Origin: Prosopocoilus inquinatus
Taxonomy: Eukaryota; Arthropoda; Insecta; Coleoptera; Lucanidae
Assembly (NCBI GenBank): GCA_036172665.1
Contig: CM069874.1
Coordinates: forward strand, 51,380,707 to 51,444,706
DNA length: 64,000 nt
Direction of reading: 5' to 3'
The notes below the pieces were generated by a model that searched no databases, was not told where the DNA came from, and saw only the letters and a list, made by a program, of their open reading frames with translations. This document shows positions 7,408 through 64,000 of the stretch, piece after piece (positions within the stretch are counted from its first letter, which is position 1; each line of letters opens with the position of its first letter). The position numbers were made by a program, and so were the translations under genes.

Positions 7408-10400
7408 TTAATTACTGAATTCACGATTGCGCAAAACGATGGGCGCTACAAGTGTCCAGGTGTACAAGCCAAGACAAAGCCAGCTGGATATCGCCTTGAT
7501 CCACATCGAAGCTGAGTTTGCGTTCAGAGTGTCCAGTGAAGAATTTGGCCTGTAAAGTTTAAGATATTATAACATTACAATAATTCAATCCAAGTAAAAC
7601 CACTACGTTAAATTAGTGTTGCAAGTCAGTTTTAATTACAGTGGATTTCCAGAGCATCCCCTAGTCAGCTCTTTTGCCCCCCCCCCCTCCCCGCCACCCA
7701 CCGCAAGTGTGCATACGTGTAATAGCACAACGCTTTCCTGAATCTTATAGGAATGTCGTACAGCGAAGTTCTGTAAGTTGATTAATTAATCGGCAAGAAC
7801 TCGGACGATATTAAACTTAAATTGAAGTTTGTTCTTGTCCGATGAAAATAGTAAGTACAAAGTTTTTTTAATCTCAAACCGGACAGAAAAATGAAGGGAA
7901 ACACACTCAACGTTTCGCTATAGATTTATAGCTGACGAAGCTATAAATCTATAGCGAAACGTTGAGTGTGTTTCCCTTCATTTTTCTGTCCGGTTTGAGA
8001 TTAAAAAAACTTTGTACTTATTAAACTTAAATGTATTAAGTGTGCTATCGTTGCGAAGCTAATAAAAAGAGCTATCCACAAGTGCAGTAATATACAGGCT
8101 CTTCCATTTAAAATAACCCAGCAATTTTACAATTTCTTGAAACGAGCCTATTTTTGTTAAAATCCCGACGATATTCAGAATTCGTAAATGACTTGAGAGT
8201 ACAGATGTTTCGAAGTGCAGATATCAATCTGCTATCATTTAAAATCATCTTCAGGCAGACGTTTGAATTTGGATGGTTTCTTACAAGAAACAAGAAATAA
8301 AATAACTCGAAAAGTACTGAAATTAGGTTAATAAATTATTATAATCATTTTCATCACCTCTTCAAGTGCTACACAAATATGAAGGGTTCCATTAAAAGAT
8401 GATAAGTTTGATGTGTAACTTAATAAAGATACAGCCTGTAATTGAAAATAATTTTAAATTCGGCAGAATATGGGCCCGCGCAACTTTCCTTAACAAAGTT
8501 TTTTTTTTTTTGATAAAAATGCCATTTTCGTACTTCCTGGGAGCGCTGGGACACCCTGTGTATGCAAAGGACATACTTACTTGTACCAATTGGTGAGGGT
8601 CATCATAACGTAGAGCGTAGCCAAGGCAAACATGCAGTGGAAGAAACTCCAGTTGTAAGCGACTTCTTCTTCTTCATTGTCCCAAACTTTAGCGCTCCCG
8701 CCTTCACCACCGTCGTTTCTGACTCCACCTGGGATAGGAACATAACCTTTGATTGGCAAAAGAAATAAAAAAAAAGATAGTAACACACAAAGCTGTACAG
8801 GAAACTAAGAATAAGAGCGTTCAAATTTTATATGTAAACAAATTCATTGCAAATTAGAAGGCGCTGTTGAGAGGCATCAAAGAAAAATCATCCACAGCAT
8901 TATGTTAGTTAGTGCCAAAACTTGAGGGTTCGATTTTTTCTTTTCTTAAATTAAAATTGCTTTACAAATACCATGCACCATTTACACCCAATACATTTGA
9001 AATTATTTTTCTTTAAAATTTACTGCGTTCCTAAACATGTACACTAAAAACTACATCATAAAACAGAGCAAAACAAAAAAAAAATAATAAAAACTAATAC
9101 TGAACGTCATACCTTCGTTGGCAACTAGGCCCGCATCAATACTGCTCTTGTCTGGATTAAAATAAATAATCATTAGTACATTAGTTATAACGTTGTAAAC
9201 AAAAAAAAAAACACTAGTACATAATGCCATGGCCAGAAAAGTGCATGCAGATAAAGAAAAAAATATTTTGAGAGTATTTACCTTCGGTATTATCCTTGGC
9301 CAAAACATGCTCAGACATTGTGATCTTTGATGAATTACTAGCGGAGCGGAATGAAGAGTACATCACGCACAAAATCCAGATAATCAAACCGATGATGCTT
9401 TCAGAGTCGAATCCCATCTGGCTGTTCTCTTTTTCAACACCAACTATGCCCAATAAGCCAGGATTACAATAAGTATCTGCAAAAATAAATTAAACGAAAT
9501 CCTGATGTTTCTAAAAGTCGCTGCTGCTGAATTCTACCAGGTTGATTTGAGACTGTAGACCAAGTAAGATAAGTCACATAGAGTGAAACAACGGAGGACT
9601 GAAGTAAGCCGGATTTTGGCAGTTTATCCTGAACTGCCGGTAAAATTGATACAACACTCACGATGACGCAGAAAATCAAATTGAACGATATGAAGAATTT
9701 GTTCAGAGCACAGGCGTCAGGCTGAAAAGTTATTATGCAGAAGAAAGAGTTGCAAATTACGTTGAGAACTTACCTTCGTGAAGAACACGTAAAGTAAGGT
9801 AATTCCCGTAATGGTCAGTGCGTAATTTATGAAAGTGCACAGCAAGAGGGCGACGTACCAGACTTTCGATTCAGTTTCCTCGTATTTTCCCACCCAGTAT
9901 TCAGCCCAGCAATGCGCAAAATCGATAATTAAGATGAGCTGAATGATTATGTAGAAGAAACCTCCTACCATACCAAAGTACATCCAGGTCCGACCAAAGG
10001 AACCTTCTGGGATGAAAAATGCTCCAATTATTCCACCGATGACAAGTAAATATTTTATTGCCCAAAACCTGAAATTAGTTTTTTTTTTTTTATTAATTTC
10101 ATATTTCATTTCATTCATTAAAGTAAACTGTCATTTACTTTACAATATATTATTGAAAATTATGAGATATTTCATTAATTCCCATGAAATAAATGGTATG
10201 CTTTTCTAATAAGAAAACTTATGTGAAGATAAATACAGATATTGGGCCTTATGAATAAAGTTTAAGCAATTGCTTTTCCTTAAAATTTACTAGTAAACAC
10301 TTAATATCGAATGAATAAAATCTTTAGCAATTACTTGACCTTGCAGCAATTGCTATGACCAAAGAGAGGATGTAAGAAAGTGATCAATCAGTCTAATATC

Positions 10401-28369: not shown

Positions 28370-30670
28370 ATATATATTATTATATTTTAGGAGTATTAAT
28401 TTACTGCTAAGTTTGTTTTGTTCCTATTATAGTATATAACTATACGGATTAACTGGAATGTCCAATTTGTTGTCAAATATTGACTGGAGCTTTATAAATG
28501 CTACCAGCGATGTAAACGTTGTTTTTAACAATTTTTTTTCTATTTTGCTCAATGCGCATAAACATTTTTTTCCCTTAAAGAAAATAAAAAGAACCTGTAG
28601 CGGGAGACCTTTGGTGAATTGGTTTACTAATCATCTACGCAAAATGAGGGATCACTTAAATTTTTTATTTGAAGTAAAAAGAAAATATCCTACATCACAA
28701 CACTTAGTATATATAAGAACTACAAATTACTTTATAGTAAACAATTAGAATTATCAAAGAAAATTGCATATGAGAAATACATAAAAAAATCGAGCAACAG
28801 TGCACGAGCAATGTGGGATGTAATTAATATGCAAAAAAAGGGTTCACTTAATGATTTGACTTTACAACATAAAATTTCAGTCAATGATTTTAATATTTTT
28901 TTCACTAGCATAGCAAAGGAAACTATGTATTTCTAAAATGGATGCACCACCAATTTCATTTGATACGTTTCTTCTCGATATCGAGAAAGTTTTTCAGTTC
29001 AAAAACGCTACATTCATAGAAGTTCGAGATATTATTGTACAAATGAAGTGTTCTAAAAGCTTAGATGTATATGGGTTAAACATTTTACTTATAAAAAAAA
29101 TCGTTAACTTATTGTATATTCCTCTCACTAATCTCATAAATAAAATATTTAAGACTGGCATATATCCTGATGTTTTTAAATTATCTTGCGTTGTGCCTAT
29201 ACTGAAAAAAGGCAACCCCGATGAATGTAGTAATTATCGACCTATTTCTTTGGTTCCAGTGCTGTCTAAAGTTATAGAGACTGTAATGAAAAATAGAATA
29301 TGTTCATTTTTTGAAACACATAACTTGTTTAGTAGACATCAGTATGGATTCCGTAAAAGGCGATCCACCGTATCAGCTATTGACTCGCTTGTCGATTATA
29401 TCACGAATGTATTTGAGAGGAGTGAATACGCCTTTTCTGCATTTTTTTGACCTTACCAAGGCTTTCGATTGTATTTCTCATGATATCCTAATATCGAAGC
29501 TCAAATATTATAATTTTGACTCAATGAGCATAAAGCTAATAGCATCGTATCTAAGCGACAGGAGCCAGGTTGTTCGATGCCAGGATAAATTTTCTGAGTT
29601 AATTGACGTTTCAGTTGGTATTCCGTAAGGTTCTGTTCTAGGTCCAATTTTGTTTTTGTTGTATATTAATGATATTGATCGATGTGTTCCCAATTTTAAG
29701 ATAACTCTATTCGCGGATGATACAACGCTACTAAACAGAGATATTAGTTTCATTAATGGATCTCAGAACTTTTCGGAAGCTGTAACAAGTATTAAAAATT
29801 GGTTCTTAAGCAACAAACTTAGCTTAAATGATGAAAAAACGCATTACATGAAATTCTCTCTGAGAAATTTGAACCTTCAAACAGATAACTTTGACAGTGT
29901 AAAGTCCATCAAATATCTAGGAGTATATTTGGATTCCACTTTACAATGGCACGAACATACAGAATACATTGCGAACAAACTCACTAAAGTAATATATCTC
30001 ATAAGACATTTAAAAACTTTTGTTCCTTGGTAGTGTTTTATCTGCTTACTACGGTCTGTTTCAATCAGTTATATCGTATGCAATTTTAGTCTGGGGCCAT
30101 TGTTCTGAGGCTAAAAGAATTTTTATACTTCAAAAAAGAATAATACGTATTATGGGTGGCTTAGGGTATAGAGATAGCTGTAAGGAAACCTTCAAAAAAC
30201 TGAAAATTAACACTTCCATCACTTTACATTTTAGAATGTTTACTCTTTATAAAATCTAATATTAATAATTTCATTGACCACCAAAAGAACCGCGAATATG
30301 ACACCAGGTTTAAATCTGATATAGTGATGCCACAACACAGATTGAATAGGTTTCGTTATGGCAGCAATTATTATGCGGTCAAACTTTTCAATAAGTTACC
30401 ACCTGAAATCCGTCAAAAATCCTTACCACAATTCAAATCTATTATCAAACAGTATTTGATAACGCATTCCTTTTATTCCATCCAGGACTTTCTTGAGCAT
30501 TCTCATGTCTTTTAAAATACCTACATGTATTATCTATGTGATTGATTTTGACTGTATAACTTTATGTTTTACATTGTTTTATACACATATGCTATATATG
30601 ACGTGTGAAATACTTTTTTGTATCTATCACAAATAAATTATTAATATTATTATTATTATTATTATAAATT
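28370..30670 (+). pseudogene. Non-LTR retrotransposon (CR1/Jockey-like), decayed
   Basis: Open blocks at 28458-28748, 28938-29450, 29460-30033, 30020-30259 and 30324-30515 join to an RT domain. Motifs run SNYRPISLVPVLSKVIE, HQYGFRKRRSTVSAID, FDLTKAFDCISHDILISKL, VGIP(stop)GSVLGPILFLLYINDI, FADDTTLL, KSIKYLGVYLDSTLQWH and a C-terminal NKLPPEIRQKSL region. A frameshift at about 29440 and a stop replacing Gln in the PQG motif at about 29627 inactivate it. FADD is intact. The 3-prime end has AATAAATTATTAATATT and a (TTA)n tail to about 30667. The 5-prime part, with the endonuclease, is missing. Confidence 0.9.
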
Positions 30671-31372
30671 AGCTATTTTTCGATAAAACAGTATGGCAAG
30701 TTGAAATTGAAGTGGAAGGATTTTGTTTCATAAACGCGTTCAGAAAATCATCAAATCATCAAATTTTTGAAAAATTAAAACAAAAAAAATCTCTTCACTC
30801 CAATACCAATAATTACGCCAATTATACCAATAATTCTGCGTAATGCTAATTGTAAAGTTTTTACTGTTTATTAAATTGATTTTAAATTATTATTTTTTAC
30901 ACAGTGTGTTTTGATTTTTAAATCAATTATTAGTTCAAAATGTGTTGCAAATAGGGTTTTATTAATGTAATTTCGTTTTTTTTTGGTAAATAGAAAAATA
31001 AGAAAATTCCACCACTTATCTTTCAGTAATTTACTATTCAAGCAGGTAGTGTGCGGTAGTGAGTTATAAAGACATTTTTGAATATTAAATTTTTGCTGCC
31101 ACCAGGTAATTTTTAAGAATTTACTTGTCTATTTAATAACTCTTTCTAACTCTTTAGAAGGCTTTCGAGGATTCTTGGCTCAGAAACTGTACAAATAAAT
31201 AAAATCCCTCATGTGCTACAATGGATTTATTCAGCACTAATGTAAATTGATACAAACAAAAATAAATAAGGACAAAAAATAAAAGAAGTAAAATTTAATT
31301 AAAAAAAAATTCATAAGAAAATGGTATTGATATATATGATAACAATTATTATACATTAATAATAATAATTAA
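30671..31372. other. Intergenic AT-rich sequence
   Basis: No gene. A segment near 31165-31215 (GCTCAGAAACTGTACAAATA, CCCTCATGTGCTAC) recurs in altered form near 38105-38150, so it is part of another low-copy repeat. Confidence 0.4.
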
Positions 31373-33624
31373 AGAGCGGATTCTATGCTAAATGCATATT
31401 GCATGCATATTTTGCATATTTGAGCATTGTGTTCAATTTTCGCATATTTCTTAAAAACGTGCATATATATGCATATTTGAAAGAATTTGTGTCGAAGTGA
31501 GTAAATTTTTTCCTGAATTCTTAATTCGTCAGAACATGTTGCTGCATTAATTAGGGTCTAGTTTGCACCCTTCTTGGGCTTAAGCAGGCAGAGTTTTCCA
31601 AGTAGTGAATTAGGGATTTCCAAGTACTTTCTTAACGATGCGGTGGGGCGTTCATGTTTGCAATATTGTTTCATCACTTCTTCACGGATTATTAGTCGGT
31701 TATTGCTGCGAACGTTTAGTTCTTCCGTAAAAGTATTTTTGTTTGTGAGAATTGCAATATGCCGAAAGACAATTCGAGCCTGATTAATTCCTGGATCAGA
31801 AGCTATCCCGAGCTTGCTTACACCAATGGAAGCGTATTCTGTAAAGCCTGTAGTAAAATGGTAAGTTTTAAGTTTGTTTTCTTCCTCCTTAGGTAAATAT
31901 TTGCTTGGTTCTTGAATATTGAAAGTTCAGACAGTTTAAAAAAATTGAAGTTCTTGTTGTAGATACCAACCCAACGAAAATTTTCGGTCACACAACATGT
32001 CGGGACAGAACTACACAAGTCAAAATGCAAGAAGATGAATGAATCGAAAACATTTCAATTACCCTTAGACAGTGGACCGTCGTTGATGACTTCATCTAAT
32101 GAACAACAAGAATTTAATGCTGATTTATGCGAGGCGATGATTTGTGCAAACATACCTTTGAAAAAACTGCAAAATTCTATTTTTAAAAGTTTTTTGGAAA
32201 AATATACCAAGAAAAATGTTCCCGATGAAAGTACGTTAAGAAAAAATTACGTGCCTCGCATCTACAACGATACTCTAAAAGAAGTCAAGAAAATCGTAGA
32301 AAATCAATATATTTATTTTATTGTGGATGAAACTACTGATTCTTGTGGGCGTTACATTGTAAATTTGTTAATAGGGTCCTTGCGGGAAGATAAACTTTGT
32401 GAATCTTATTTAATAGCCTGTACACAGTTAGACAAAACTAATCATTTAAGTATTTTAAGATCTGTTAATGAATGTTTTATGAAATTTTTCTCACCTAATG
32501 TAGTTCCTACTGAAAAATTTTTACTTATGGTATCAGATGCTGCCCCTTACATGGTTAAAGCCGGGCAGCAATTTAAAACAATTTATAAAAATTTAGTTCA
32601 CGTGAGTTGTTTAGCTCATGGATGTAACAGAGTAGCTGAACATATTAGATGTGAATTTTCTGATGTAAATCTACTAATTAGTACCATTAAAAAAATATTT
32701 GTCAAAAGTCCCCTACGAGTTCAGTTGTACAGGGAAAAATTGTCGAATGTACCTTTACCTCCCGAACCAGTGTTGACTAGGTGGGGAACTTGGTTGGAAG
32801 CGGCAATGTTTTATGCTGAACATTTTGTAGCAATTAAGGAATTGGTTGTAGAGTTTAATGCCCAAGATAGTGCTGCTATTGCAAAGGCACAAAATATTGT
32901 AACAAAAACTTCATTGGCAAATCAACTGAACTTCATCAAAATGCATTACAGTTTTGTAATACAAACTATAAACAATTTAGAAAAACCGAAAATGTCTTTA
33001 ATAGAATCCGTTAAAATTGTTAAAGAATTTAAAGAGAATATTTCAAAAGTTTCAGGTAAAATCGGCAGTTCAGTAAATAAAAAATGTTTATCCGTTTTAG
33101 ATAAAAATAGCGGCTTCAAAACCCTTGATGAAATTTGCGAAATTTTGAATGGAAACTTTGAAATTGACTTAAGTGTAGAATTTTCAGCTATGAGTCACTT
33201 TAAATATGCCCCAATTACCTCCGTGGATGTTGAAAGGAGTTTTTCAATTTATAAAAATATTTTGTCAGATAAAAGGCAAAATTTCCTGGTAGAGAACTTG
33301 GAAAAACACGTTGTAAATTATAATCGAAGATTTTTTTAGTCGTTATAATATTTACTTAATAATGTACATACATAATATACATACTTCCTTCATATAAGCG
33401 TTTACAAATAAATGTAAATAAATTGTATAAAATATAATGTTTTTTATTTGAATAAGAATGCCCATAAAACACAGTAGACCAGTTATTGCATTATTTGAAG
33501 TGTTCGGCTTATCTTGCACATATTTCGCCATATTTAGTGCATATATATGTGCATATTTCATCATTTTTTAGTGCATATATATGCGCATATTTCATCAAAA
33601 TTACTCGCATATAAATCCGCTCTC
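31373..33624. mobile_element. Autonomous-looking hAT transposon
   Basis: Terminal AGAGCGGATTCTATGC and, as complement at the right, AGAGCGGATTTATATGCG bracket a spliced transposase gene. Both subterminal regions carry many TGCATATATATGCATATTT-like words (31385-31480 and 33520-33605), as expected for transposase-binding repeats. Flanks on both sides contain ATTAATAATAATT, so the 8-bp duplication cannot be read apart from this low-complexity sequence. The element sits against the 3-prime tail of the minus-strand LINE at 33630. Confidence 0.85.
31759..33339 (+). CDS. hAT transposase, two exons, intact frame
   Basis: Exon 1 is 31759-31860 (34 codons, donor ATG|GTAAGT). Exon 2 is 31963-33339 (acceptor TTGTTGTAG). 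The phase is 0, giving 492 residues with no stop or shift. The N-terminus has a BED-type zinc finger split by the intron: FCKACSKM in exon 1, then H and C residues (QHVGTELHKSKC). The catalytic domain has FIVDETTDSC (first Asp, about residue 155), LMVSDAAPYM (second Asp, about 225) and the C-terminal hAT dimerisation block TSVDVERSFSIYKNIL with the catalytic Glu (about 459). CLAHGCNRVAEHI and TRWGTWLEA are the usual hAT insertion-domain landmarks. It is expected to excise and insert its own element with 8-bp duplications. Good candidate for a recently active copy. Confidence 0.92.
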
Positions 33625-34956: not shown

Positions 34957-36484
34957 CAATGTGTCCACATTTCGATGCTCACCATTGGCATCTCGGTTAT
35001 TAGAAGACATAGAGCAACGGTTAAATGGGGAATGTTTTGCAGAATTCAATGCTCGCAACAAATCTCATTTCAAATTCACCATAACTTTTTTAAATTTTAA
35101 GATAATTTAAGAAAACCAAAATTTGACGATTTCAATATTCCTCAATAACTCGATAACACCTGATGTGACCTCTTCTGAACTTTTACATTGTTCAGACACT
35201 TTTTTAAGACAAAGTTTTTGATGCAAACAGAAACCTCCGATTGTCATTTATTTTCAAGTTATTAACGCTAACTTTTGTTTTTCATATGGCACCCATATTA
35301 GGTTTTTGATTAGTTAGATAGTCTTTAAAAAGAGCTTTTCAACGATGTATAACATACCCGAAAAATTTTTATTTACAGGGGAAATATTAACAAAAACAAA
35401 TTAATTTCCTATGAAATTAGTAGGCTATGGAATTAAACACCAGTGAGAAAGCTTAAAGATGTGCTAAGTATGCTGTAAAATAAGGAAATGATAATAAAAG
35501 TCATAAAAGAAAAAAAAAGTAAAGAAAGTGTACTAAAAGTTCAGGTTGACTTAAAGAAAGTGTTCAATATGACGACCATTCTGTTCCACACACTTTTGAC
35601 AACTTATTCTAACATAGTTTCAGACACTGCAAAGTGTGTTTTCATTTAATGATCTTAGAACATCCATAATTCTTTGTTCTAAAATTCCCCGAGCTTTTGG
35701 CGGTGCAAAATTAACAACTTCGTTTTTAGTGGTACCCCATAAATGAAAGTCAAGGGGGGTAAGGTCGGGCGATCTCGCAAACAATTGTACTGGTTCATTA
35801 TTTGAAAGTACTCTCATTAAAGTTTTCTCTCAAAAAATGTACGTCACGACTGTTATGTGCCAGGTAACCATCCTGCTGGAACCAGATGTTCTGCATGTCT
35901 TCAGGATTAATAATTTGTTTCGAAGCAGGTATTTTTCGTTTGTTAGTAGTTCCAAATATTTGTTACGTCAATATCGTTTCGTTATTTTACAGTATTGAGC
36001 TTTTAATTTCATAGCCTACTAATATCCTAAGGGATTAATTTATGTTTTTATTAATATCTCCCTTAAAAATAAAAATTTTTCGGGTACGTTATACATCGTT
36101 GACAAGCTCTTTTTAAAGACTATCTAACTAATCAAAAACCTAATATGGGTGCCATATGAAAAACAAAAGTTAGCATTAATAACTTGAAAACAAATGACAA
36201 TTGTAGGTTTCTGTTTGCATCAAAAACTTTGTCTTAAAAAAGTGTCTGAACAATGTAAAAGTTTAGAAGAGGTCACATCAGGTGTTATCGAGTTATTGAG
36301 GAATATTGAAATCGTCAAATTTTGGTTTTCTTAAATTATCTTAAAATTTAAAAAAGTTATGGTGAATTTGAAATGAGATTTGTTGCGAGCATTGAATTCT
36401 GCAAAACGTTCCCCATTTAACCATTGCTCTATATCTTCTAATAACCGAGATGCCAATGGTGAGCATTAAAATGTGGACACAGTG
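34957..36484. mobile_element. Tc1/mariner-superfamily element, ~480-bp inverted repeats
   Basis: CAATGTGTCCACATTT at 34957 and the complement of AAATGTGGACACAGTG at 36484, with TA on both sides, bound a 1528-bp element. Its arms (34957-35440 and 36000-36484) are near-identical inverted repeats. It interrupts the LINE exactly after the DHNI codons. Confidence 0.88.
35600..35960 (-). pseudogene. Transposase catalytic-domain remnant
   Basis: Between the arms, the minus strand carries a WFQQDG-type segment (NIWFQQDGYLAHNSRDV near 35870-35910) and, in another frame, FARSPDLTPLDFHLWGTTK (about 35745). These are the second and third acidic motifs of Tc1/mariner-type transposases. The N-terminal domains are gone and frames are broken, so the element is non-autonomous. 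The closest match in this window is the protein at 58447-59418. Confidence 0.8.
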
Positions 36485-37060
36485 TATATTGTGGTCGACC
36501 AAGTCGAATGCTTTGGAGAGATCACAATTCAAATAGGCCACAAGTTTTTTCTCATTAATAAGATTGTATAAATTAGATAAAAAAGATGTAAGGGCTGTAT
36601 TAACGGATCTCCCGGCACGAAAGCCATGTTGAGCACTGTTAACAATGTTATTTTTCTCTAAGAAGCTGACAACTCGGGATTTAATAGCGGACTCAAAAAT
36701 TTTTGATAAAGCCGGCAAAATTGCTATTGGCCTATAGTTTGAGACAATACATTTGTCTGATTTCTTGTGCGCAGGTAGAATTTTAGCGGTTTTAAAGCAT
36801 TGCGGGTATTTACCTGTTTCAAAACTACAGTTGATAATATTACTTATATTTGCAAGAAGATCAATATTATATTTCAAAATTTTTATAGGTATGTTATCTG
36901 TGCCAGTAGCATTCGTGTTTTTTAGTGCTTTTACGATGACTTTAATTTCTGATTCATGTACAGGTAATAGAAATAATGAATGTCGGGATGTAAAATTCGT
37001 TTTCTTTAGTTTTTCATAACACTCACCGTTGTTTACATTTCGGACAGAACTGAGGAAGAG

Positions 37061-39732: not shown

Positions 39733-41593
39733 AAGTAGCGACATCCTGCGATCGCTTCTTGACTTCACATTCCATTAGGAATGACAAATTGAAGACAGTT
39801 TGCTATATACCGAGTGTATCAGAAAATCGTGTGTTAATTTTAAACCACAGAAGAATTCGCCAAGCTGACTGATTTTATTTTATGGCATTTTGAAAATATC
39901 GTCAACTTTTTCGTAATTTTTTTACCCCTATTTTTGAGCAAACGAGTCGATTGATGTTTGAACTGAACCATCTTTCGAAAAACTATGGCAACAATGGCGG
40001 ATACAATTATTATGTACAATGTGTCCACGATATAGAGAACACTGGTACGCTCACTCGCCGCCATTTCAAAATTTTGTGCAAGTTGAGTAGTTTGTAAAAA
40101 TTCGCTAGATGGCAGAACCGTATCGCGGACTGTCATTTTTATCAAATTCCGCAGCCGGTTCTTCTGAGGCTCTTGTGGTTAACACAAAACACATGGGCAG
40201 AGATAAACAGAGGTCAGTACGCAACAACTGGTTTGAGGTTAAATACTGCATTTTAAATTTTAACTATGAATTTAAAGCGAAGTTGTCAGGCGTAGAAATT
40301 TTAATTTAAAGAGGGTATGTATTGGCGAATAATTTAATTCGTTTCCTAATTTAGTTACATTGCAGTCAAAATAGAAAGACTTCTCAGAGTTAATTTGTAT
40401 TGAAGCAAGGAGATTTTAACATAAACATGAACTCATCGTAAGATTGCTAGCTAACCTAGAATATCCACCAATCCATCTGGCATTAAACTGACCGATGTAC
40501 TGATTAAAATGTACTCAATATAACGAGTGGATTTAAATTCACAAAAGTACCTATCTAGTAACATCAGTTCTGCATGCAAGTGACACCAAAAGTGCATAAA
40601 GTTAAAACACCTAAACGTTACTGCAGCTTGTTTCCTTCAAGTTTGATGACCTTGCAAATTAATTCCATCGAAGCTGAAAATATCAAGTGTTATGTGAGAG
40701 GCTCATAACCTTCTTTATATTATTTCTAATTTAATAAACATATTGTTTAATCTGATTACATCCCTTATTCCAAGATTACCGTAAGAGTAGCACTTGTCTT
40801 CATTTGCATCACAAGTTTGAAAAACTGATGATGATGACCAACGCAATGAAAGTTTATCTACGTTTCACTCTGGCTCTTTCAGAAAATAAAATGATTTATT
40901 AATCTCGAAGAAATTGACAAAAAACAGTGAAGCAAATAACATCTTCGATTCATTTGCACTGGTTGCAGTCAGTGTTTGCATCTTGTAATAACACAAGATG
41001 AAGATACTCGTCGTGCGTTGATTCAATGCCAGTGAATCAAAAACATTAGTAGATATTTAAAGCATCATTAAATTTTCAGTTAACCAGAATAAACTGCTGT
41101 TAAACCAATTTGGGTTACAGATGTAGACTTACGATTCATACCATTAATTATGAAATATTGTTAATTATAGATTTTGGAAAGGCTTCAAGAATGATCAAAA
41201 TGCAGGTGTCACAATATTAAAGCAACATTTTGTGTGCTCGATACATTTTCAAGAAAAATTGTTAAAAATCGTTAAGACAGTGGAAATGAAATCATTCAAA
41301 GCACACTGACAGATGATGCTATTCCTCAACTAAATGTATGCTCCTGCTGAACTAATGCTAATCTCACATCTGTTCTTTCTTCCATCACTACCAGATACAA
41401 GAAACAAATAATACCAATAACCTCTGAAAGGTTTGTAAAAATCAAGGCAAAACGTACTTGCTCGTAACATTAGTAAATATCTTTTTACATCTGTTTGATT
41501 GCTTGCTAAATTTGACAGTCGCCATTTATTCTTTATTTCATTACACACCAACCAAAGTTTGTTAATACACACGTAAATACTGAACATACGTCG

Positions 41594-41632
41594 CACAGTG
41601 TGTCATTTCTCGGATCTAGCGGTACAAAATTC
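41594..41632 (+). promoter_or_regulatory. 23-RSS-like transposase recognition site, left
   Basis: CACAGTG heptamer at 41594-41600, spacer 41601-41623 (23 bp), nonamer-like ACAAAATTC at 41624-41632. RAG-family recombinases recognise such a layout. The heptamer is identical to the vertebrate consensus. Confidence 0.8.
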
Positions 41633-41884
41633 AAATTAAGGACATCTGCATGATTAATGTCAAACAGGTTCTGTCATGTAGATAAAACCCTACTGTTTTC
41701 GGAAAATATAAAATTTTGGAGTATAGATTACTTGCTACCGGGCTGAATTATTTAAAATAATTCAAATGTAAGACGGTTAAAATCTAAGTAGTTTTATTAG
41801 CATTGTTTGAATCTCTGTGTTTGAAACACCCTGTGACAATAGTGGGTTTTGTCAGGTTTAGTGTTTTTATGGTACATTTCTGAG

Positions 41885-44176
41885 ATGGAGGCAAAAATTT
41901 CAAATGAAAATAAAAATTGTAAGTAGTCTTGCTGAATTTTATTAATATGTAGTGTAACTTCTAAATGAATTTTCATTTTACCAAGATGTACAAAAAAAGT
42001 TTCAAATCAATTCAACTAAATTATAATAATACATTCTTTTTCTTATAAGAACAATTAAAAATTAGCTGCGTAAACTTGCGTATCTCAATGATTCTGATTT
42101 TTATTTGCAGATGCGCACAAAATTACAAACAATATGCTGTTTGAAATATGGGAGACGTGTAAGGGTAAGGATTATTTAGAAACAATTTCGAATTGGATTA
42201 TTCAGTTTAATAACATTAATCAACCAACTGACGGTGACATGCACAAATTAAAAAATATTGTCAAATGTTTTTGTTGCAACGTGGCGAAGAGATGGAAGTT
42301 AGCGTCAAGAAATAAGCATACATTCGCAATTCAAAATAAAGGCTGGCTTGAGAGGAATATCGAGTCACCTCTTAGGCAACAGTTAATACCTTCAACGCCA
42401 AATAGTGGGCATGTAGCACCCTCTCCTAAACTGGGCGCCCAATAAAACCTTTCGAAGAATGTACTAAAAGAGTGAAAAACAGAAAAGCTGCACAGCTTCT
42501 TAAAATAAAATCGCCGCAAGAAATTTTATTGGCAGCAGAAATTACAATGAGATCGGAAGGAAAGAGAGATGCAGCTAATATATTTAAGGAAATATCAGCA
42601 TCTTCACCAACAAGAGCAACAAAATTAAAACATGCCAGGCAAAGTTCAACATCACAAAGTCAGCAAATGTCTCCAGAAAAGGCACTTTCTGTTATGGTAA
42701 ACAATAATTTGACAACACAACAATATAAAAACATTAGAAAAGAATGCAAGCAATTTGGATCGTCTACCTTTCCTTCGTATAATTTAGTTAAACAAGCAAA
42801 ACTACTTTGCTATCCACCTAAAGAGACGATCTTGATCACAGATACTTCTGCTGAAGTAAATTTACAAGATTTATTAAGTTTAACTGCACAACGCTTAGTT
42901 ATTGTACAAAAAGATGTTCTTTTATCTCTCTCAGAAGCTGAAAATAACACATTAACATTAATATGCAAATGGGGTTGTGACGGAAGTTCATCGCAAAGCC
43001 GCTATAAACAAAAAACTGGTGTCAGAGAGTAGTGATGAAGCTGTATTCTCCATAGCATTTGTACCATTACGTCTAATAACACATACCAGTAACAAACAAG
43101 ATACCATAATATGGAAGAACCAAAGACCTTCTTCGACAAGATTTTGCAGAGTAATAAAGTTTGCGTATAAGAAGGAAACAAAAGACGTGATAAACGAAGA
43201 AACTAAGGTTTTACAAGAAAAGATAAACAAGTTAACGTCAACATTAGTAAAAATTGAAGAAAGGGAATTTATAATACAGCATAAAATGTTACTTTCAATG
43301 ATCGATGGTAAAGTTTGCAGTGCACTTTCGCGATTCCAGTCTTCTCAATTGTGTTACATATGCGGAGCATCGCCGAAAGAAATGAACACTATTAAAGAAC
43401 TGACGAAAAAAAAGCCCATAGAAAGTATGTACGAGTTTGGTATTTCTCCGCTCCACTCTTGGATTAGAGCCTTCGAATTTATACTCCACCTCTCCTACAA
43501 ATTAGGAATAAAGAAATGGCAAGCTAGGAGTGAGGATGATAAGCAATGCGTAAAGCGGAGAAAGACAGAAATTCAGGACAAGTTACGAGAGGAATTGGGA
43601 TTACTTGTCGATATTCCAAAGCAATCTGCCGGCAACACAAACGATGGTAACACAGCTCGAAGGTTCTTCAGTAATCCGGCATTGACAGCGACCATAACTG
43701 GTATTGACGCAGACTTAATACATCATTTAAAAATAATTTTGCAAACTTTGTCTAGTGGCTTCCAAATCAATTCTGATAAATTTTATGAATATGCCATGGA
43801 AACCAAGGAAATATATCTATCCCAATATTGGTGGTATTATATGCCCGCAAGCATCCACAAAATCTTGATGCATGGAAAGGAAATTATTTCTTCTTGTATA
43901 TTGCCTCTTGGGGAATTAGCTGAAGACGCTCAAGAATCGCGCAATAAAGACTACAGAAATTTCCGGGAAAATTATTCCCGAAAAATATCACGAAAGGCAA
44001 CGAATGAAGACGCGTTACACAGATTTTTATTAACATCTGACCCTGTTTTATCAAGTCAAAAGATACCCACACCTAAGACATCTCAAGGATTTCATCATGA
44101 CACTTTACAACTTCTAGAATGCCCTGAGATAGGGTTCCAATCTGAATTAGAATCTTCTTCAGAAGACTCCGACTAA
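41885..44176 (+). CDS. RAG1-like Transib transposase, two exons, two 1-nt frameshifts
   Basis: Exon 1 is 41885-41918 (MEAKISNENKN, donor GTAAGT). Exon 2 is 42111-44176 (acceptor TTTATTTGCAG). The frame shifts near 42431 (GGG run, one G short) and near 43012 (six-A run, one A extra); otherwise it is open for about 700 codons, the usual Transib size. Landmarks shared with RAG1: KWGCDGSS with the first catalytic Asp; CYICGA, a CxxC zinc pair like RAG1 C727/C730; ASIHKILMHGKEII, an H-x4-H like H937/H942; and QESRNKDYRNFR aligning with the ESGNKLFRRFR region around Glu 962. Where RAG1 has LHCDIG with its second catalytic Asp, this protein has LHSWIR, so that residue seems changed or my alignment is off. 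Function: cut-and-paste transposition at the CACAGTG ends. Confidence 0.85.
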
Positions 44177-45625
44177 TACAGACAGTTTTTAACAAATTTA
44201 TTCCTGCATTTTTACAATTTCATAATAATGGTCAACAAATGAAGTGGACCTCAAACAATGTCAATGAATTGACTTCTATACACTATTTTTTCTTGATAGG
44301 CGGAAAAATATAGATTGACGTAACGTGTTACATAATTAACTACCGACCAAAAATTTCAGAGTTGACCCCAATTGTTACTAACTAGTTGCTGTTATAATAA
44401 AATTAAAAAAAGAACACAAATAACTGACTAATATAAGAGTCATATTCATTTACAACTTCGTGTCTTTCGCCTATCAAGAACAAATTGACCTGATCTGATT
44501 CAAAAAAGATTTTAATAAAAGTATGCAATAAATTATCACCATATCTCCACAGTTTGTCGAAAACTGACAAAGCCCGATAAATTCTCAAAGAATATTATAT
44601 TACATTATACTTACACTTATCTGTCCTCAAGTTCAGGCATTTGATAGATAATCGTTTGACATCATTAACACGTTTAGAAAACTTATGGTTTATGTGGAGC
44701 ATTTATTTAAAATTTGTTCGCAATTAAATTTTTTTTAATTTAATTACGTAAGCTGCAGTTATTTTATTTATTTACTTCATCGTTTAATCTATGTTTAATG
44801 CAAGTCTTTTTTAACTGGTTCAGATAATTTAGTTAATTTATTTGTTCCATATGGATTAATATACTTGAATTTTTTTTATTCTATTGGAAATACATTTTTT
44901 ATTTTAAATCGTACATAAAGATAAAATTATGTTTATTACAGTGTTTTGAATTTTACTATTTTTTTATACACAGTGTAACAGAATCACAGGCCGCTAGTTC
45001 ACATATTCTACAAATAAAAATAAAGGAAAAAGTTTATATTATACACTATTAAGTTTCTTATTTGAATTTTTACGAAGTAGCTTATTCTAGAAACGTTTCA
45101 GAAAAAAACTTCTATACAGAGTATACGCGGAAAACTGTATCGATAGCTACAAAATCGTTTTCTAGAGACGAATTTAACTAGACATCCTGAATGTAATGCA
45201 GTGGTAAAAAGCTCATATTCTCGTGAAAAATAAAAACAATTAAAAATCTCAAAAATAGTCATTTTTTTTCGATACTGCCATAAAATCAAGCGAAAAGGTC
45301 CTCAAACTTTCCTAATTTAAGTTACTTCATGAAGTTTCAAATAAAAACTTAGCTATTGCAGACATATCTCTAAACCCTGATAGTCATTTGTTTTTCCGAA
45401 ATTATCGTTAAATTGGACAGGAAAGGTCCTGAAACTTTTCTAATATAAGTTACTTCGTAAAAATTCAGATAAGAAAGTTAACTGTTGTTGCGGCTGTCAT
45501 GAACACCCTGTACACATATTTATAGAAACTTTTTTCTTTATTTTGAAGCTGTAGAATATATCCCTGGAGTAGCGGTCTATATTTTTGTTACACTCGAAAT
45601 TTTAGAAAGTGAGATGCGCCGTTTT
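44177..45625. other. Non-coding right part of the Transib element
   Basis: About 1.4 kb without a supported gene. Two diverged direct copies of a segment with AAGTTACTTC and TTTCCTAATTTAAG-like words lie at about 45295-45365 and 45420-45490. Confidence 0.5.
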
Positions 45626-45664
45626 AAATTAAGTACCGCTAGATTTAGCAAATAACACACTGTG
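45626..45664 (-). promoter_or_regulatory. 23-RSS-like transposase recognition site, right
   Basis: Read on the minus strand: CACAGTG, the 23-bp spacer ending GCGGT, then ACTTAATTT. The heptamer is perfect and the nonamer is weak. The spacer shares CTAGCGGT with the left end at the same position. Confidence 0.75.
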
Positions 45665-45794
45665 CGTCGCCTACAACCGTGCCAACAACACGTAATATAA
45701 CCTACAGGAGTACATTAATGACGTTTAGTGACAGTCCTTCATACATTGGTGTCATCTAGCGGTAAAATTTAAATCACGTAACTAGGCACTACTT

Positions 45795-54027: not shown

Positions 54028-55318
54028 CGTGGGCTGCTGGAAAAATGTCTGGAATCTAGTAGATTTAGAATTGTTGGCGTTTATTAACTGTCATATTTGA
54101 AAAATTTTACGTTTTTCGCCTATAATTCTATTGACAGTTTCTATCCAAGTGAATTAGTTTTGTTTGTACAGCATTTCAGAAAAAGTAATTTTGTGTAAAC
54201 ATGGAAATCACGCATGAAAATTTTCGTGCCATGATTTTTTACGATTTCAAATGTGGTCTAACGCCGAAACTATGCCTCGATCGGCTTCATTTGGCTTTTG
54301 GAGATGAAGCACCACCAAAGAGCAGTGTTTATAATTGGTTTACCGAATTCCAGCGTGGACGTACCTCTCTCAGTGACGAATTTCGTGAAGGTCGTCCATC
54401 AACATCTGTTGTTGCCACTAATGTAGATGCTGTGGTAAAATGCTTGAGTGAGATCGACATGTGACATACCGTGAGATTCAAGCATCCTTACGCATTGACA
54501 TGAAAGCAATACACCAGATTTTGGATGATCGTTTGAACGTACAAAAGCTTTGCAGTCGTTGGATTCCACACAATTCAACAGAAGCGCAGGAGCAGAGTCG
54601 TGTCAAATGGTGCGAAGAAATGCTCAAAAAATTCAATGGAAGTCGTTCAAATTTAGTTTATAACATCGTTATTGGTGACGAAAAGTGGATCTATTCGTAC
54701 GAGCCAGAAAGTAAACAACAATCTACCGTTTGGGTATTTCAAAATGAACCAAAACGAACAAAAGTTGTCCGTTCACGCAGTGCTGCGCAGCAAATGATTG
54801 CTTGTTTCTTTGGTTTAACTGGACATGTAGCATCCGTGGCTTTAGAGGATCGGAAAACCGTGAATGCTGATTGGTATACTACAATTTGTTTGCCGGAAGT
54901 CATGGATCAAATAAGAAGAAACAATCGAAATCGACGAATTATTCTCCATCATGACAACGCCAGCTCTCATTTAGCCCGTCCAACAGTTGATTTTTTGTCC
55001 AACAAAAATGTTGAATTAATGAGTCACTGTCCATATATACCTGATTTATCACCTAATGACTTCTTTTTGTTCCCAAATATCAAAAATAAAATGCGTGGTG
55101 AGCGATTCTCGTCGGCTTAAACAGCGGTTGAAACATTCCGGACACTGGTTTCTGAGGTACCATCATTAGAGTCGAAAACGTGCTTTAGAAATTGGTTCGA
55201 GCGTATGCAAAAGTGTATTGACGTCAAAGGCGACTACTTCGAAAAACAATGATACCGTTTACCTAATTTCATATGCGTTTTTTCATACCGTTTCCAGAAA
55301 CTTTTCCAGCAGTCCACG
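54028..55318 (+). mobile_element. mariner transposon, 1.29 kb
   Basis: TIRs CGTGGGCTGCTGGAAAAATG and, as complement at the right, CGTGGACTGCTGGAAAAGTT are flanked by TA (54026-54027, 55319-55320). Size and layout are those of a full-length mariner. Confidence 0.95.
54201..55252 (+). pseudogene. mariner transposase, two lesions
   Basis: Starts MEITHENFRAMIFYDFKCGL. The N-terminal helix-turn-helix region includes SSVYNWFTEFQRGR. A frameshift at about 54450 separates SEIDM from TYREIQASL, and a TAA at 55118 interrupts RFSSA(stop)TAVETF. The frame then continues to the genuine end GDYFEKQ at 55252. Catalytic motifs are intact: VIGDEKWIYSYEP, HHDNASSHLA and SPNDFFLFP. There are 34 residues between the second and third Asp (DD34D), and the WVFQNEP linker and YIPDLSPNDFFLF block are typical. 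About 349 codons in all, the usual mariner length. Confidence 0.93.
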
Positions 55319-57918: not shown

Positions 57919-60011
57919 CAGGGTGTGGATAAAGTATGGAACAAAATTCATATTTCTGTTATCTTGGGTTTGATGAAAAAATACTGAAACAGGTCGATTT
58001 TAGTTTTGTCTCGTGCATTTTATGACATAGTGAATTTCATTCTGTAGCCATCTGATTGCATCCAGGTGTAACGTCATCAGTTTTTTCAAATGGTAACATC
58101 AGACTTTTATTATCCCTTGTCGTTAAGTATTCCATTGTGCATACAACGGTATAAAAAGTTTGGTATCTTATATAACAATTTTTTGGAGAAAAACACTTTC
58201 GAATTAAAAAAAAATAAAAATTTTATTCCTATGATAAACTAATCAAAAAATGATAAACTAATCAAAAATTATCAACAAATTAGATAAAATATCAACGGAG
58301 GTGTTCAAACTGTCCACCGTTGGCCATTTGACATTGGCCAAGTGTTCAAACTGTCCACCGTTGGCCATTTGACATTGGCCAAGACGGACGTACACACTTT
58401 CTACGGAACGTCGTATTGTCTCTGGGTCAATATTGCGAATTTCCTCTTAAATGCGAGTTTTCAGGTCATCCAAGTCATGTGACTTATTTGTGTACACATT
58501 TGATTTCACATGACCCCATAGAAAAAAATCAAGTGGGGTGAGATCTGGTGAGCGGGCAGGCCAGTCAATTGTTCCCCTTCGTCCTATCCATCTCCCTGGG
58601 AAAATTTCGTCGAGATACCTGCGAACATGCTGGCCAAAATGTGGAGGTGCTCCATCTTGTTGGAACCAGATTCTGGGATGAGGCGCATCAGGATTGGCTT
58701 CGTCCGGAAACAGTATTACCAATGCTGGCACGAGGTCAAATCTTAGAAAATCTAAATATCTTTCAGCGTTTAAATTTCCCTCGAGAAAGACAGGTCCCAC
58801 AATGCGATCTCCTATTATTCCCGCCCACACATTAACTTTTTGTTGGGTTTGGGTGTGACCCTCCCGAACCCATCGAGGATTTTCGCCCGACCAATATCTA
58901 CAATTATGGCGATTCACCTGACCGTTTATTTTAAAAGTTGCTTCGTCGCTAAAAACCACATTACTGAGAAATTCGGGATTCTCATCGCATCGTAGCATCA
59001 ATTGTTCACAGAACTCGTTTCGACGGTCGAAGTCATCTTCATTCAGTTCCTGAACGAGATGGACTTTATATGGATGAAGTTTTTCCTTCTTCAAGTACTT
59101 TGCGACTGTGGAAAAGTCGACTGCATTATCTCTGGCAATGTTTCTTGTTGAAGTGTGGGGGTTGTTTTGAACTTCCAAGACAATGTTCAGCCTAGTACCT
59201 TCTTCAGTTCTTGGACGACCTTGTTTGGGTCTGTCTTTCACACTGCCAGTTTCTGTGAATTTTGCCACAATTTTGCTCACCGTTGATCGCGAAATCGGTG
59301 TTCGGTTTGCATTTTCTGCATTGAACAATTGACAGGCTTCTTCATGGCTACGTATTTTATCACCAAAACCAACCATAATAAGAATTTGAATTCTGTCTTG
59401 TTCGCTCAAATAAGCCATTTTCGTGATTCACTTTCAACACTACCAAATTTCCGTTTTAGTCAAAACGAATACTCAGGTGCAGTACTTGATATACGGTTAT
59501 AAGCTAATTGACAGTACTTTGACATTACTTTCGTCTACGCCATAGTTACTTGCGTTTTTCGGTTCTAGGAACAAACGGTAAGGCCTGCATAGGGTTTTTT
59601 TGTTTCCCTTATGTCGACTGGTCGATGTTTCGATTGAAGACAATCCGAGGTACACCTCAGACGTATCTAATTTGTTGATAATTTTTGATTAGTTTATCAT
59701 AGGAATAAAATTTTAAATTTTTTAAATTCGAAAGTATTTTTCTCCAAAAAATTGTTATGTAAGATACCAAACTTTTTATACCGTTGTATGCACAATGGAA
59801 TACTTAACGACAAGGGATAATAAAAGTCGGATGTTACCATTTGAAAAAACTGATGACGTCACACCTGGGTGCAATCAGATGACCACAGAATAAAATTCAC
59901 TATGTCATAAAGTGCATGGGACAAAACTAAAATCGATCTGTTTCAGGATTTTTTCATCAAACCCAAGATAACAGAAGTATGAATTTTGTTCCATACTTTA
60001 TCCACACCCTG
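57919..60011 (-). mobile_element. Tc1/mariner-superfamily DD41D element, 2.09 kb
   Basis: CAGGGTGTGGATAAAGTATG at the left and its complement at the right are flanked by TA (57917-57918, 60012-60013). The inverted repeats extend about 360 bp, with few mismatches. The left arm has a 20-bp tandem duplication (TGATAAACTAATCAAAAAA) missing in the right arm. Similarity of the arms implies recent activity. Confidence 0.95.
58447..59418 (-). CDS. DD41D transposase, truncated by one nonsense codon
   Basis: Opens MAYLSEQDRIQILIMVGFGD, a helix-turn-helix region of the DUF4817 type, then PISRSTVSKIVAKF, the GRPRTEEG linker, and the DDE domain: VVFSDEATF, RIWFQQDGAPPHF and DLTPLDFFLWG. I count 41 residues between the second and third Asp, the DD41D (rosa-like) spacing; the clade name is inference. 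The frame stops at TAA 58447-58449, but the next codons (EEIRNIDPETIRRSVESVYV) clearly continue the protein. A 41-bp tandem duplication (58301-58341, 58342-58382) then alters the natural end MANGGQFEHLR. The otherwise open 323 codons show it is recent. Confidence 0.92.
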   Translation of the reverse strand: MAYLSEQDRIQILIMVGFGDKIRSHEEACQLFNAENANRTPISRSTVSKIVAKFTETGSVKDRPKQGRPRTEEGTRLNIVLEVQNNPHTSTRNIARDNAVDFSTVAKYLKKEKLHPYKVHLVQELNEDDFDRRNEFCEQLMLRCDENPEFLSNVVFSDEATFKINGQVNRHNCRYWSGENPRWVREGHTQTQQKVNVWAGIIGDRIVGPVFLEGNLNAERYLDFLRFDLVPALVILFPDEANPDAPHPRIWFQQDGAPPHFGQHVRRYLDEIFPGRWIGRRGTIDWPARSPDLTPLDFFLWGHVKSNVYTNKSHDLDDLKTRI

Positions 60012-61521: not shown

Positions 61522-64000
61522 ACGTAGGGCTTACATAATTCCAGAAACACTGTTCTATAGAATTTTGCAACTCAATTCGCGACTCGTGCGATCGGTGTCA
61601 ACCGGTATTACTCGCTTTATTGAGCTTTCTTCTCTGTTTTCCTAAGCTAGCTGACTGCCGAAGAGCTGATGTTCTGTCACCGCGTGTGGATGTTAGAATA
61701 TTGAGTTGTGTATGTTAATTAAAAGCTTAAATCGGACGAGACTGCAGTGTTGATTGCTTGAGGTCTCTTTATGCTGTTTTTTTTGCGAAATTTCGGATTT
61801 TCAAGATCTTTGAAAGGACCGATTCATCCTTAGGGTTCGGTCAAAGTACGTTGGATTTCTTTAGGAGAAAAGGGAGAGAATGTTGCTTGTTGCGTTCCAT
61901 TTTTGATGTTGGTGTTATAACTGATTAAGTCACCCTTTTTATTGTGCTGTGTGCGAGTTGTGGTTCTTACGATTCGCCGATTTGTGTTCTCTTTTCTTGT
62001 TTGTTTCCCCGTGTGGTTTTCGGATTAATTACTCCTAGGCACCGGATTTCCCCGTATAAGGAACCGTTCTCGGATTTTTGTTGTATTTACCGCTGTCCAC
62101 CTGCCCGCTTGTTTTTCTCTGTTTCACGGATCATCTACGAGGTTGTAATCTTTTTGCCTCTTCCTTTTGCGCGACTGACTTCGTGTGGTATCCGTTTTGA
62201 GGTTCCTAATTTTCTTGTTTTTATCATCTTTTAGCAAACAGTATGTTACGGTTTCTCAGGAAATAACCTGTATATTAAACAGGACTCGTAATTATTCTCT
62301 GTTGCATAGTACACCTATTAGGTAACGTGTATGCGGGAAAGCGCTTCATGCCGCACCTATTTCGTCAGATTTTACTGCGTTTAAAAGCAGTTTTTTTTTC
62401 ATTTTCAAATGATCTCACGCTGTGTGTTTTGACTCAGATGCTTTTGTGCATTCGTTTCAAAATACTCCTACCAAAAAACGGTATGAAATACTCGATGCAT
62501 CGGCACTTTTTTGTCATTTTAATTAAATAATATCATTCGGAGTTTTTATTCTTAGATAGAATTGCTTCATCTTTTGAAACTGCTTTGTGAGAACCGTTCG
62601 AAATTAATATACCACGCGGTTGGACAGTCATAAAATTCCCGTCCCCGTCTATTTTTCTCTACTAGAATATGTGAATTACAATTTTTGCGATTTAATATTT
62701 AGAGAGATAGATTAAATTGGTTTCACTCTCTGTCTTTAATGCCATTCGTTTTTATTTACGTCATGTTGATACTCGTTGGTTCCTGCCGATGTTTTCGATT
62801 TGTGCAAACCTATCCTTCGTACATTTGGGAGCACGGTTAATTTTGCTTTATTAACTCGACAGCCAGTTGGTCGTTCAGCGATATCCTCAGCGACTGGTGG
62901 TGTTGTTTGTAGAGGGCGCGGCTCCATTTTCGCGTCATGGCAACCTTGTAGGTCGGTTCACATTTTGGTTTTTTGGGAGGAACCGCAGGGAGGTTTCCTT
63001 GTCGGTTCTGGTTTGGCGCTGGTGAAATAAGAACCTCGTTCTGAGTTTGTCTCAGGCCTCAGGATTTTTAGCTCCGGCTTATTTTTAGTTCCGACTTATT
63101 TTTAGCTCCGGTTTATTTATAGCTCCGGTTTATTTTTAGCTCGGGCTTATTTTGGAGTTCCAGGTTTTGTACGGCGTATTTTCTTTCGTGTAGTATGACT
63201 CCTAGCTTGGTAAATAAGCGTTGGTTGTCAGCTCATTGTTACGATCCTTCTGCCGAGCAGCGCAGCCGTATTGCGGATCCGGCTTTCGGCGAAGCTGTTC
63301 CGAACCGGATCATTTTCGTTCAATGCCGTCATACGTTATTGGTGGAGAAGTACGGAACCGACCCTACACGATGGCGATCAGGTGGAAGATATCCTTATTT
63401 GCGGCTACGGCTGTAAGCCGAATTTTATATATCATTGCTACTGTGAACATTTTACTTTGGGCGCTTCATGCCAAACTTATTTAAGCTCACGTTTGAATTT
63501 ACATGTTGTAAAACTCTCAACGGTTAATTAGCATTACCTTTGAAATATTCTTGGTGTACATTTGATACTGTTCTTTCAGTTAAAGATCATTTAACTTAAA
63601 ATTTCCTAGTTTTGGTGGTTATAGTTCTCTTGTTGAGTACGCACTTGATGGCGTTAAGCCCACCACACTTTATGCATTGTTTTGATTTTGGTTGACAATA
63701 TTAAGGATTGTTCCATAAGTCGAGTCGTTTCCTTTTCCTTCGATCTAATCCTTATCTTCGGTTAACATTAGGTGGCGCTCATTTATTTTCGCTTTAATTA
63801 ACACTCACACCCGTCACGACTGAAGCTGGCTGTGCTTGTCGTTAATTTCCTCAGCACCAATCTTGCTTCTGCTCGAGTAGGTAGCAAGTAATGGGCCTAA
63901 TTCTCGCCGTTTAGGCCCTCTGTTTAAGGCGTGGCTCGAATAGCCGGTCTAAGTTCCATTCTTGTACGCCACCGATGCTGAACCGTTAAGGCCGCCGTAC
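61522..64000. other. ~2.4 kb without a recognised gene
   Basis: T-rich on the plus strand, with overlapping frames at 61944-62234, 62776-63030 and 63195-63531 that show no domain I know. CCGTTAAGGCCGCCGTAC at the very end and the GC-richer 62800-63450 part differ from the surroundings. The style resembles 46961-48547. A decayed retroelement is possible. Confidence 0.3.
63065..63155 (+). repeat. Minisatellite, five ~18-bp units
   Basis: Five copies of TTTTTAGCTCCGGCTTAT with variants TAGTTCCGAC, TAGCTCCGGTTTATTTA and TAGCTCGGGC. Non-coding tandem repeat in the unassigned 3-prime block. Confidence 0.9.

Follow-up and report, generated by a model that had tools for sequence, protein, structure and literature searches.

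The window, that is, the whole 64,000-nucleotide stretch of DNA analysed here, contains at 41594-45664 what is almost certainly a Transib-superfamily cut-and-paste DNA transposon, present as a single insertion with a CGTCG duplication and tripartite ends and now broken in frame. Transibs are known to be related to the enzyme by which antibody genes are rearranged. The element is an ordinary Transib copy with consensus heptamers, and probably a dead one; the likeness of its ends to the cutting signals of antibody genes (RSSs) is an already known Transib property. Its ends, its duplication, the homology of its protein and its broken frame can be read directly. The reading as a Transib element, proposed in a preliminary description of this DNA, is supported.

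Boundaries and terminal inverted repeats

The limits of the element and the parts of its two terminal inverted repeats (TIRs) are as follows.

41594-45664: element, 4,071 bp, between two copies of CGTCG
41589-41593, no strand: left target-site duplication CGTCG, by direct reading
45665-45669, no strand: right target-site duplication CGTCG, by direct reading
41594-41635, plus strand: left TIR, 42 bp, 33/42 identical to the right TIR
41594-41600, plus strand: left heptamer CACAGTG, in the left TIR
41614-41625, plus strand: left copy of the block ATCTAGCGGTAC, in the left TIR
41624-41632, plus strand: left nonamer-like sequence ACAAAATTC, the 9-mer at spacing 23
45623-45664, minus strand: right TIR, 42 bp, 33/42 identical to the left TIR
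45664-45658, minus strand: right heptamer CACAGTG, in the right TIR
45644-45633, minus strand: right copy of the block ATCTAGCGGTAC, in the right TIR
45634-45626, minus strand: right nonamer position ACTTAATTT, the 9-mer at spacing 23

The preliminary description had reported CACAGTG at both termini and a perfect 5-bp duplication around them, and both statements were borne out. CGTCG fits the pattern CNNNG that Table 2 of PMC7764229 gives for the target-site duplications of Transib-type MITEs, and it is a GC-rich duplication of 5 bp, as is usual in the Transib superfamily. The TIRs start with a CAC heptamer at both ends, which is a further character of that superfamily. CACAGTG occurs six times in the window, with 3.7 occurrences expected. 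The GC content of the element is 32.4%, compared with 33.5% for the window.

When the TIRs were aligned without gaps and with both ends in one register, nine of the 42 columns were mismatched. The identical columns are 1-10 (CACAGTGTGT), 12-15 (ATTT), 21-32 (ATCTAGCGGTAC), 35-38 (AATT) and 40-42 (AAA). When columns 8-42 of the right end were shuffled 100,000 times, no shuffle reached the observed identity of 26/35 or the run of 12 identical columns. By itself, a perfect repeat of 5 bp in the flanks is weak evidence, because identical flanks were found for 5 of the 1,795 pairs of 10-bp inverted repeats lying 1.5-6 kb apart in the window, the element included. The case for the element therefore rests on the long TIRs, the duplication and the transposase combined. 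Chance as the origin of the element was ruled out by the TIR shuffles together with the statistics of the ends and flanks.

The transposase gene and the state of the copy

Two frame changes, one near 42430 and the other near 43015, break the gene, which is read in three stretches and two frames.

41885-41918, plus strand: possible short first coding exon (ATG...), suggested by splice-like GTAAGT/TTTGCAG signals and frame continuity
41919-42110, plus strand: possible GT-AG intron, suggested by the same signals and frame continuity
42111-42445, plus strand: N-terminal coding stretch, ending at the stop codon 42443-42445
42433-43032, plus strand: second coding stretch, in the other frame, with a GRPxKxF motif at its start and the first catalytic Asp (KWGCDGSS)
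42977-44176, plus strand: third coding stretch, in the first frame again, a 399-aa ORF with similarity from about 43010

In the PDB search at E<=0.001, the second and third stretches had a single sequence as their sole match, that of 6pqn and five further entries (against 6pqn, E 1.3e-22 for the second stretch and E=6.8e-99 for the third). We take this protein to be from Helicoverpa zea. Three of the six entries are named Transib in a passage of PMC11844651. The acidic positions D126, D225 and E436 given for Hztransib in PMC6941560 correspond, by our own reckoning with a single offset of 17, to D109, D208 and E419 of the 6pqn chain. All three are kept in the alignment of the element, and the third stretch holds the second catalytic Asp (MIDGK) and the catalytic Glu (DAQESRNKD). 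By these aligned positions the protein is a RAG1-like DDE transposase, as expected of the Transib superfamily.

With the Pfam RAG1 model, the third stretch scored 14.1 bits, below the cut-off of 25. Among four relatives scanned, P0052 passed with 30.8 bits, two fell below the cut-off and one was without a match at E<=0.001. A profile of the third stretch and 14 relatives reached vertebrate RAG1 at E 1.9e-10, and a profile of 67 relatives did so at E 8.5e-14. With the match to 6pqn, these profiles confirm the earlier statement that a RAG1-like protein is encoded. PF26100.1 is a precomputed label on many of the listed relatives; for the labelled P0001 and P0052, the Pfam scan returned only RAG1.

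Protein relatives at E<=0.001 numbered 1,036, of which 120 are listed. The closest among the matches listed is P0001, with 65% identity over 92% of the third stretch, and the named relatives there are from Arctia plantaginis, Spodoptera litura, Loxostege sticticalis, Sipha flava and Zophobas morio. These names suggest that the host genome is probably that of an insect. No relative of the transposase was confirmed in viral contigs (protein and alignment) or in prokaryote contigs (alignment), and the TIR pattern had no confirmed match in viral contigs.

The first stretch had no Pfam match and is 23-25% identical to the N-termini of the relatives P0003, P0005, P0006 and P0007. The second stretch opens with GRPIKPF. 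Of the 120 relatives listed, 96 reach at least 600 aa, and 82 of these have GRP within their first 220 residues. In the family profile the GRP segment is collinear with RAG1's GGRPR region; taken alone, its match to RAG1 is weak (i-Evalue 0.68 with the profile of 67 relatives and 0.85 with that of the third stretch and 14 relatives). When the segment was used for a search, two RAG1 sequences ranked first and second of 2,002 (E 0.024 and 0.13 for a set of that size), and hhalign against the RAG1 nonamer-binding domain gave a probability of 14% with E 0.0019, the latter for one comparison. The GRP segment lies upstream of the part that aligns with the solved Transib chain (6pqn).

Among the ORFs of at least 60 aa in the element, there was neither a RAG2-like gene nor a second sizeable ORF; those besides the transposase stretches are antisense only and 61-80 aa long. 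At this ORF length, a single gene without a RAG2-like gene agrees with the Transib superfamily. A RAGL/ProtoRAG identity was rejected for want of the RAG1L and RAG2L pair.

Autonomous Transibs have an uninterrupted transposase gene. Here there are two frame changes, and the copy therefore probably yields no functional transposase. Errors of assembly could account for the frame changes, one of which adjoins an A-run, and the copy could then be intact. Such an intact and active element, broken by sequencing or assembly errors only, would agree with the perfect duplication, the long open stretches and the kept catalytic residues. We consider it quite unlikely, as the frame changes are two and separate, the TIRs mismatch at 9/42 columns and repeats are nested inside. 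Judged from its sequence, the copy is a worn one, probably immobile or dead.

The repeats lie in the 3' non-coding part.

44972-45594, no strand: imperfect inverted and direct repeats

This region is perhaps a nested non-autonomous insertion or a foldback. The arms of its repeats contain AGTGTAACA and CCGCTA cores, and CCGCTA is part of the reverse complement of the CTAGCGG in the TIRs. A further CACAGTG is located at 44969-44975, at the left edge of the region.

Several other ORFs of the window resemble parts of mobile elements. A transposase-like ORF at 54461-55120 has Transposase_1 and DDE_3 matches below the cut-offs, and another at 58447-59418 has HTH_Tnp_Tc3_2 at the cut-off and DDE_3 below it. 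The 434-aa ORF at 32035-33339, with a DUF659 match above the cut-off, is presumably hAT-transposase-like. Reverse-transcriptase fragments (RVT_1) are found at 28938-29450 and 36341-36877. Of the seven ORFs scanned, the one at 9717-10118, exon-like and with a strong Serinc match, most clearly represents a host-type gene.

Heptamer, spacer and nonamer at the two ends

CACAGTG, the heptamer of the 23-RSS, is present at both ends. Its identity with the vertebrate consensus had been presented as unusual for Transib, which is not supported by the papers cited here. The likeness of Transib ends to the heptamer and nonamer of RSSs is already published: according to PMC6941560, the heptamers and nonamers of some Transib ends are the same as those that RAG recognises, with various spacer lengths, and PMC8355894 describes a few Transibs with asymmetric ends and spacers of 12 or 23 +/- 1 bp, some of whose heptamers and nonamers equal canonical RSSs. 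Symmetric Transib ends have spacers of 20-22 bp in the legend of Figure 2 of PMC8355894; the 23 bp used here are slightly above that range. TIRs are symmetric in most Transib families (PMC8289069). In the account of PMC9435367, all members of Subgroup I have asymmetric TIRs and both kinds occur in Subgroup II. PMC8289069 uses CACAGTG for the RSS in text that also covers Transib, and Transib and CACAGTG both occur in the text of PMC6620893. A published Transib end spelled CACAGTG was not found as text, apart from figures and supplements, in the matches listed.

Nonamer likeness was scored against ACAAAAACC, and the background was taken from every 9-mer on either strand of the element. The left 9-mer at spacing 23, ACAAAATTC, matches at 7/9, and only 0.36% of the background 9-mers reach at least 7/9. 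The right one, ACTTAATTT, matches at 4/9; this is chance level, with 23.8% of 9-mers reaching at least 4/9. When spacings of 8-33 were compared, 23 gave the best match at the left end (the next best being 4/9), and at the right end the best was 5/9, at 8, 28 and 29. At spacing 12 the matches are 2/9 and 3/9 at the two ends.

Between the two ends, the last part of the spacer is identical in 10/10 positions, the first part in 7/13 and the nonamer position in 6/9. The longest internal block common to both, ATCTAGCGGTAC (12 bp, columns 21-32), falls mostly within the putative spacer. The preliminary description had emphasized that an AC-starting nonamer position follows a 23-bp spacer at both ends. 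The 9-mers do start with AC, and AC is the last two letters of ATCTAGCGGTAC. The two AC starts are the tail of the common block, and they are therefore not independent evidence for a nonamer. Of the described nonamer, the AC is borne out at both ends and a convincing match at the left end only.

Two explanations of this pattern were weighed. If the ends were true equivalents of 23-RSSs, with an ancestral heptamer and nonamer recognised as in RAG1, the exact CACAGTG at both ends and the left match peaking at spacing 23 would be accounted for. The GRP segment of the transposase also fits, since PMC9435367 reports that both Transib subgroups have a domain equivalent to the nonamer-binding domain of RAG1, in which GRP positions are conserved. 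We nevertheless regard this as doubtful. The right nonamer is at chance and is surpassed at other spacings, it is the last 10 bp of the spacer and not the nonamer that are fully identical between the ends, and there is no 12-type partner end. In the text of PMC8289069, moreover, the TIRs of Hztransib resemble the heptamer and show little or no nonamer similarity.

It is a good deal more plausible, if still somewhat short of probable, that the nonamer likeness is a coincidence of AT-rich DNA and comes in addition to the family's CAC terminus. The right end behaves as chance predicts. The left match has a background of 0.0036 per position, which becomes ~0.04 when spacings of 12 and 23 (+/- 1) and both ends are allowed for. 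At the 20-22 bp given for symmetric Transib spacers (PMC8355894), the element matches ACAAAAACC at 3-4/9 on the left and 1-2/9 on the right. Against chance, PMC8355894 gives 23 +/- 1 bp for the spacers of some Transib ends, asymmetric ones, so the spacing was not freely chosen.

The claim of a full 23-RSS layout is thus half supported: the exact heptamers and a left 9-mer matching at 7/9 are there, while the right nonamer is at chance and the common block lies mostly in the spacer. The phrase "exact V(D)J heptamers with 23-bp spacers" holds literally for the heptamers, and the 23 bp holds only as the place in which to seek a nonamer. The ends are symmetric and without a 12-type end, and so lack the 12/23 asymmetry of a V(D)J-type pair of signals.

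The internal block has a further partial copy beside the element.

45754-45764, plus strand: a further exact copy of ATCTAGCGGTA, the third, starting 90 bp past the right end and outside the element

ATCTAGCGGTA is the first 11 bp of ATCTAGCGGTAC, and ~0.011 exact copies are expected in the whole window. The AT-rich tract after this copy resembles that of the TIRs. In a gapped alignment to the TIR, only the ends, the right-flank stretch and 30900 score at least 34 in the window, the latter two equally at 36. The likeness of the right flank to the whole TIR is not significant, because 2/291 null pieces reach it, both overlapping 30900; the exact 11-mer alone is unusual. At 30900-30940, CACAGTGTGTT is followed by AT-rich DNA within a two-copy tandem repeat (30876-30946), a likeness that is probably due to chance. 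CTAGCGG is found at 9338, 24541, 41616, 44991, 45636 and 45756, six times in the window with 1.36 expected, and two of these are in the TIRs.

It is very improbable that ATCTAGCGGTAC is a dual-purpose site for the transposase and a host DNA-binding protein, with the flanking ATCTAGCGGTA as a host-factor site or as what is left of an earlier, related end. The analogy is with ProtoRAG, whose TR5 is bound by YY1 (PMC7481187). No work about transposon ends was found for ATCTAGCGGTAC in the titles and abstract openings of the literature matches listed. The core of the block may resemble half of an insect CTCF motif. Scanning the window with a CTCF pattern gave one match at 63766 and none at the element, so the CTCF idea is without support from the sequence.

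For the insertion itself, we infer a mechanism from these features and from related systems. In the active period of the family, its transposase would have bound to the two ends, each made up of the extended heptamer CACAGTGTGT, the internal block ATCTAGCGGTAC and the AT-rich tract AATT.AAA. Contact with the AT-rich part is probably made by the AT-hook-like GRP segment, which would correspond to the nonamer-binding domain of RAG1. Cleavage by the enzyme next to CAC would have closed the flanking DNA into a hairpin, as has been reported for Hztransib. Insertion of the released ends at a 5-bp staggered cut in a GC-rich target would then have left CGTCG on each side.

Comparison with known systems

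As a further Transib copy, the element is a data point on the origin of the RAG recombinase and its signals. It comprises consensus heptamers, a GRP-bearing transposase and TIRs whose longest common internal block does not coincide with the nonamer. Should further genomic copies show the same pattern, this would argue for the spacer block as the inner end-recognition site in this lineage, with the nonamer likeness secondary. The accepted picture of the origin of RAG is unchanged by the element.

The element is most directly compared with Hztransib of Helicoverpa zea (PDB 6pqn), which it resembles in the sequence of the transposase and the three acidic positions. The TIRs are symmetric in both (PMC8289069), and both have a 5-bp duplication, GCTCG in Hztransib (PMC1852546) and CGTCG here. 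Hztransib is given as 3,518 bp long with a deduced protein of 489 aa (PMC1852546), whereas the element measures 4,071 bp, and most of the listed relatives (96/120) are of at least 600 aa, their N-terminal segment (GRP in 82/96) lying upstream of the first aligned residue of the solved Hztransib chain. The Hztransib transposase is active in vitro (PMC6941560), whereas the gene of this copy is broken.

ProtoRAG and other RAG-like transposons, of amphioxus and others, share with the element the CAC heptamer, the GC-rich duplication of 5 bp and a RAG1-like protein. ProtoRAG also has a second conserved block inside its TIRs, TR5 GCCATCTTG (PMC8289069, PMC7481187). Its spacers are asymmetric (27/31) and its heptamer is CACTATG (PMC8289069), whereas the element is symmetric and has CACAGTG.

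With the vertebrate 23-RSS, the element shares an identical heptamer and, at the left end, a nonamer matching at 7/9 after 23 bp. It differs from the vertebrate 23-RSS and RAG1 in being without a 12-type partner, in having its right nonamer at chance and in carrying its longest common block in the spacer, and from the vertebrate RAG system in being without a RAG2-like ORF.
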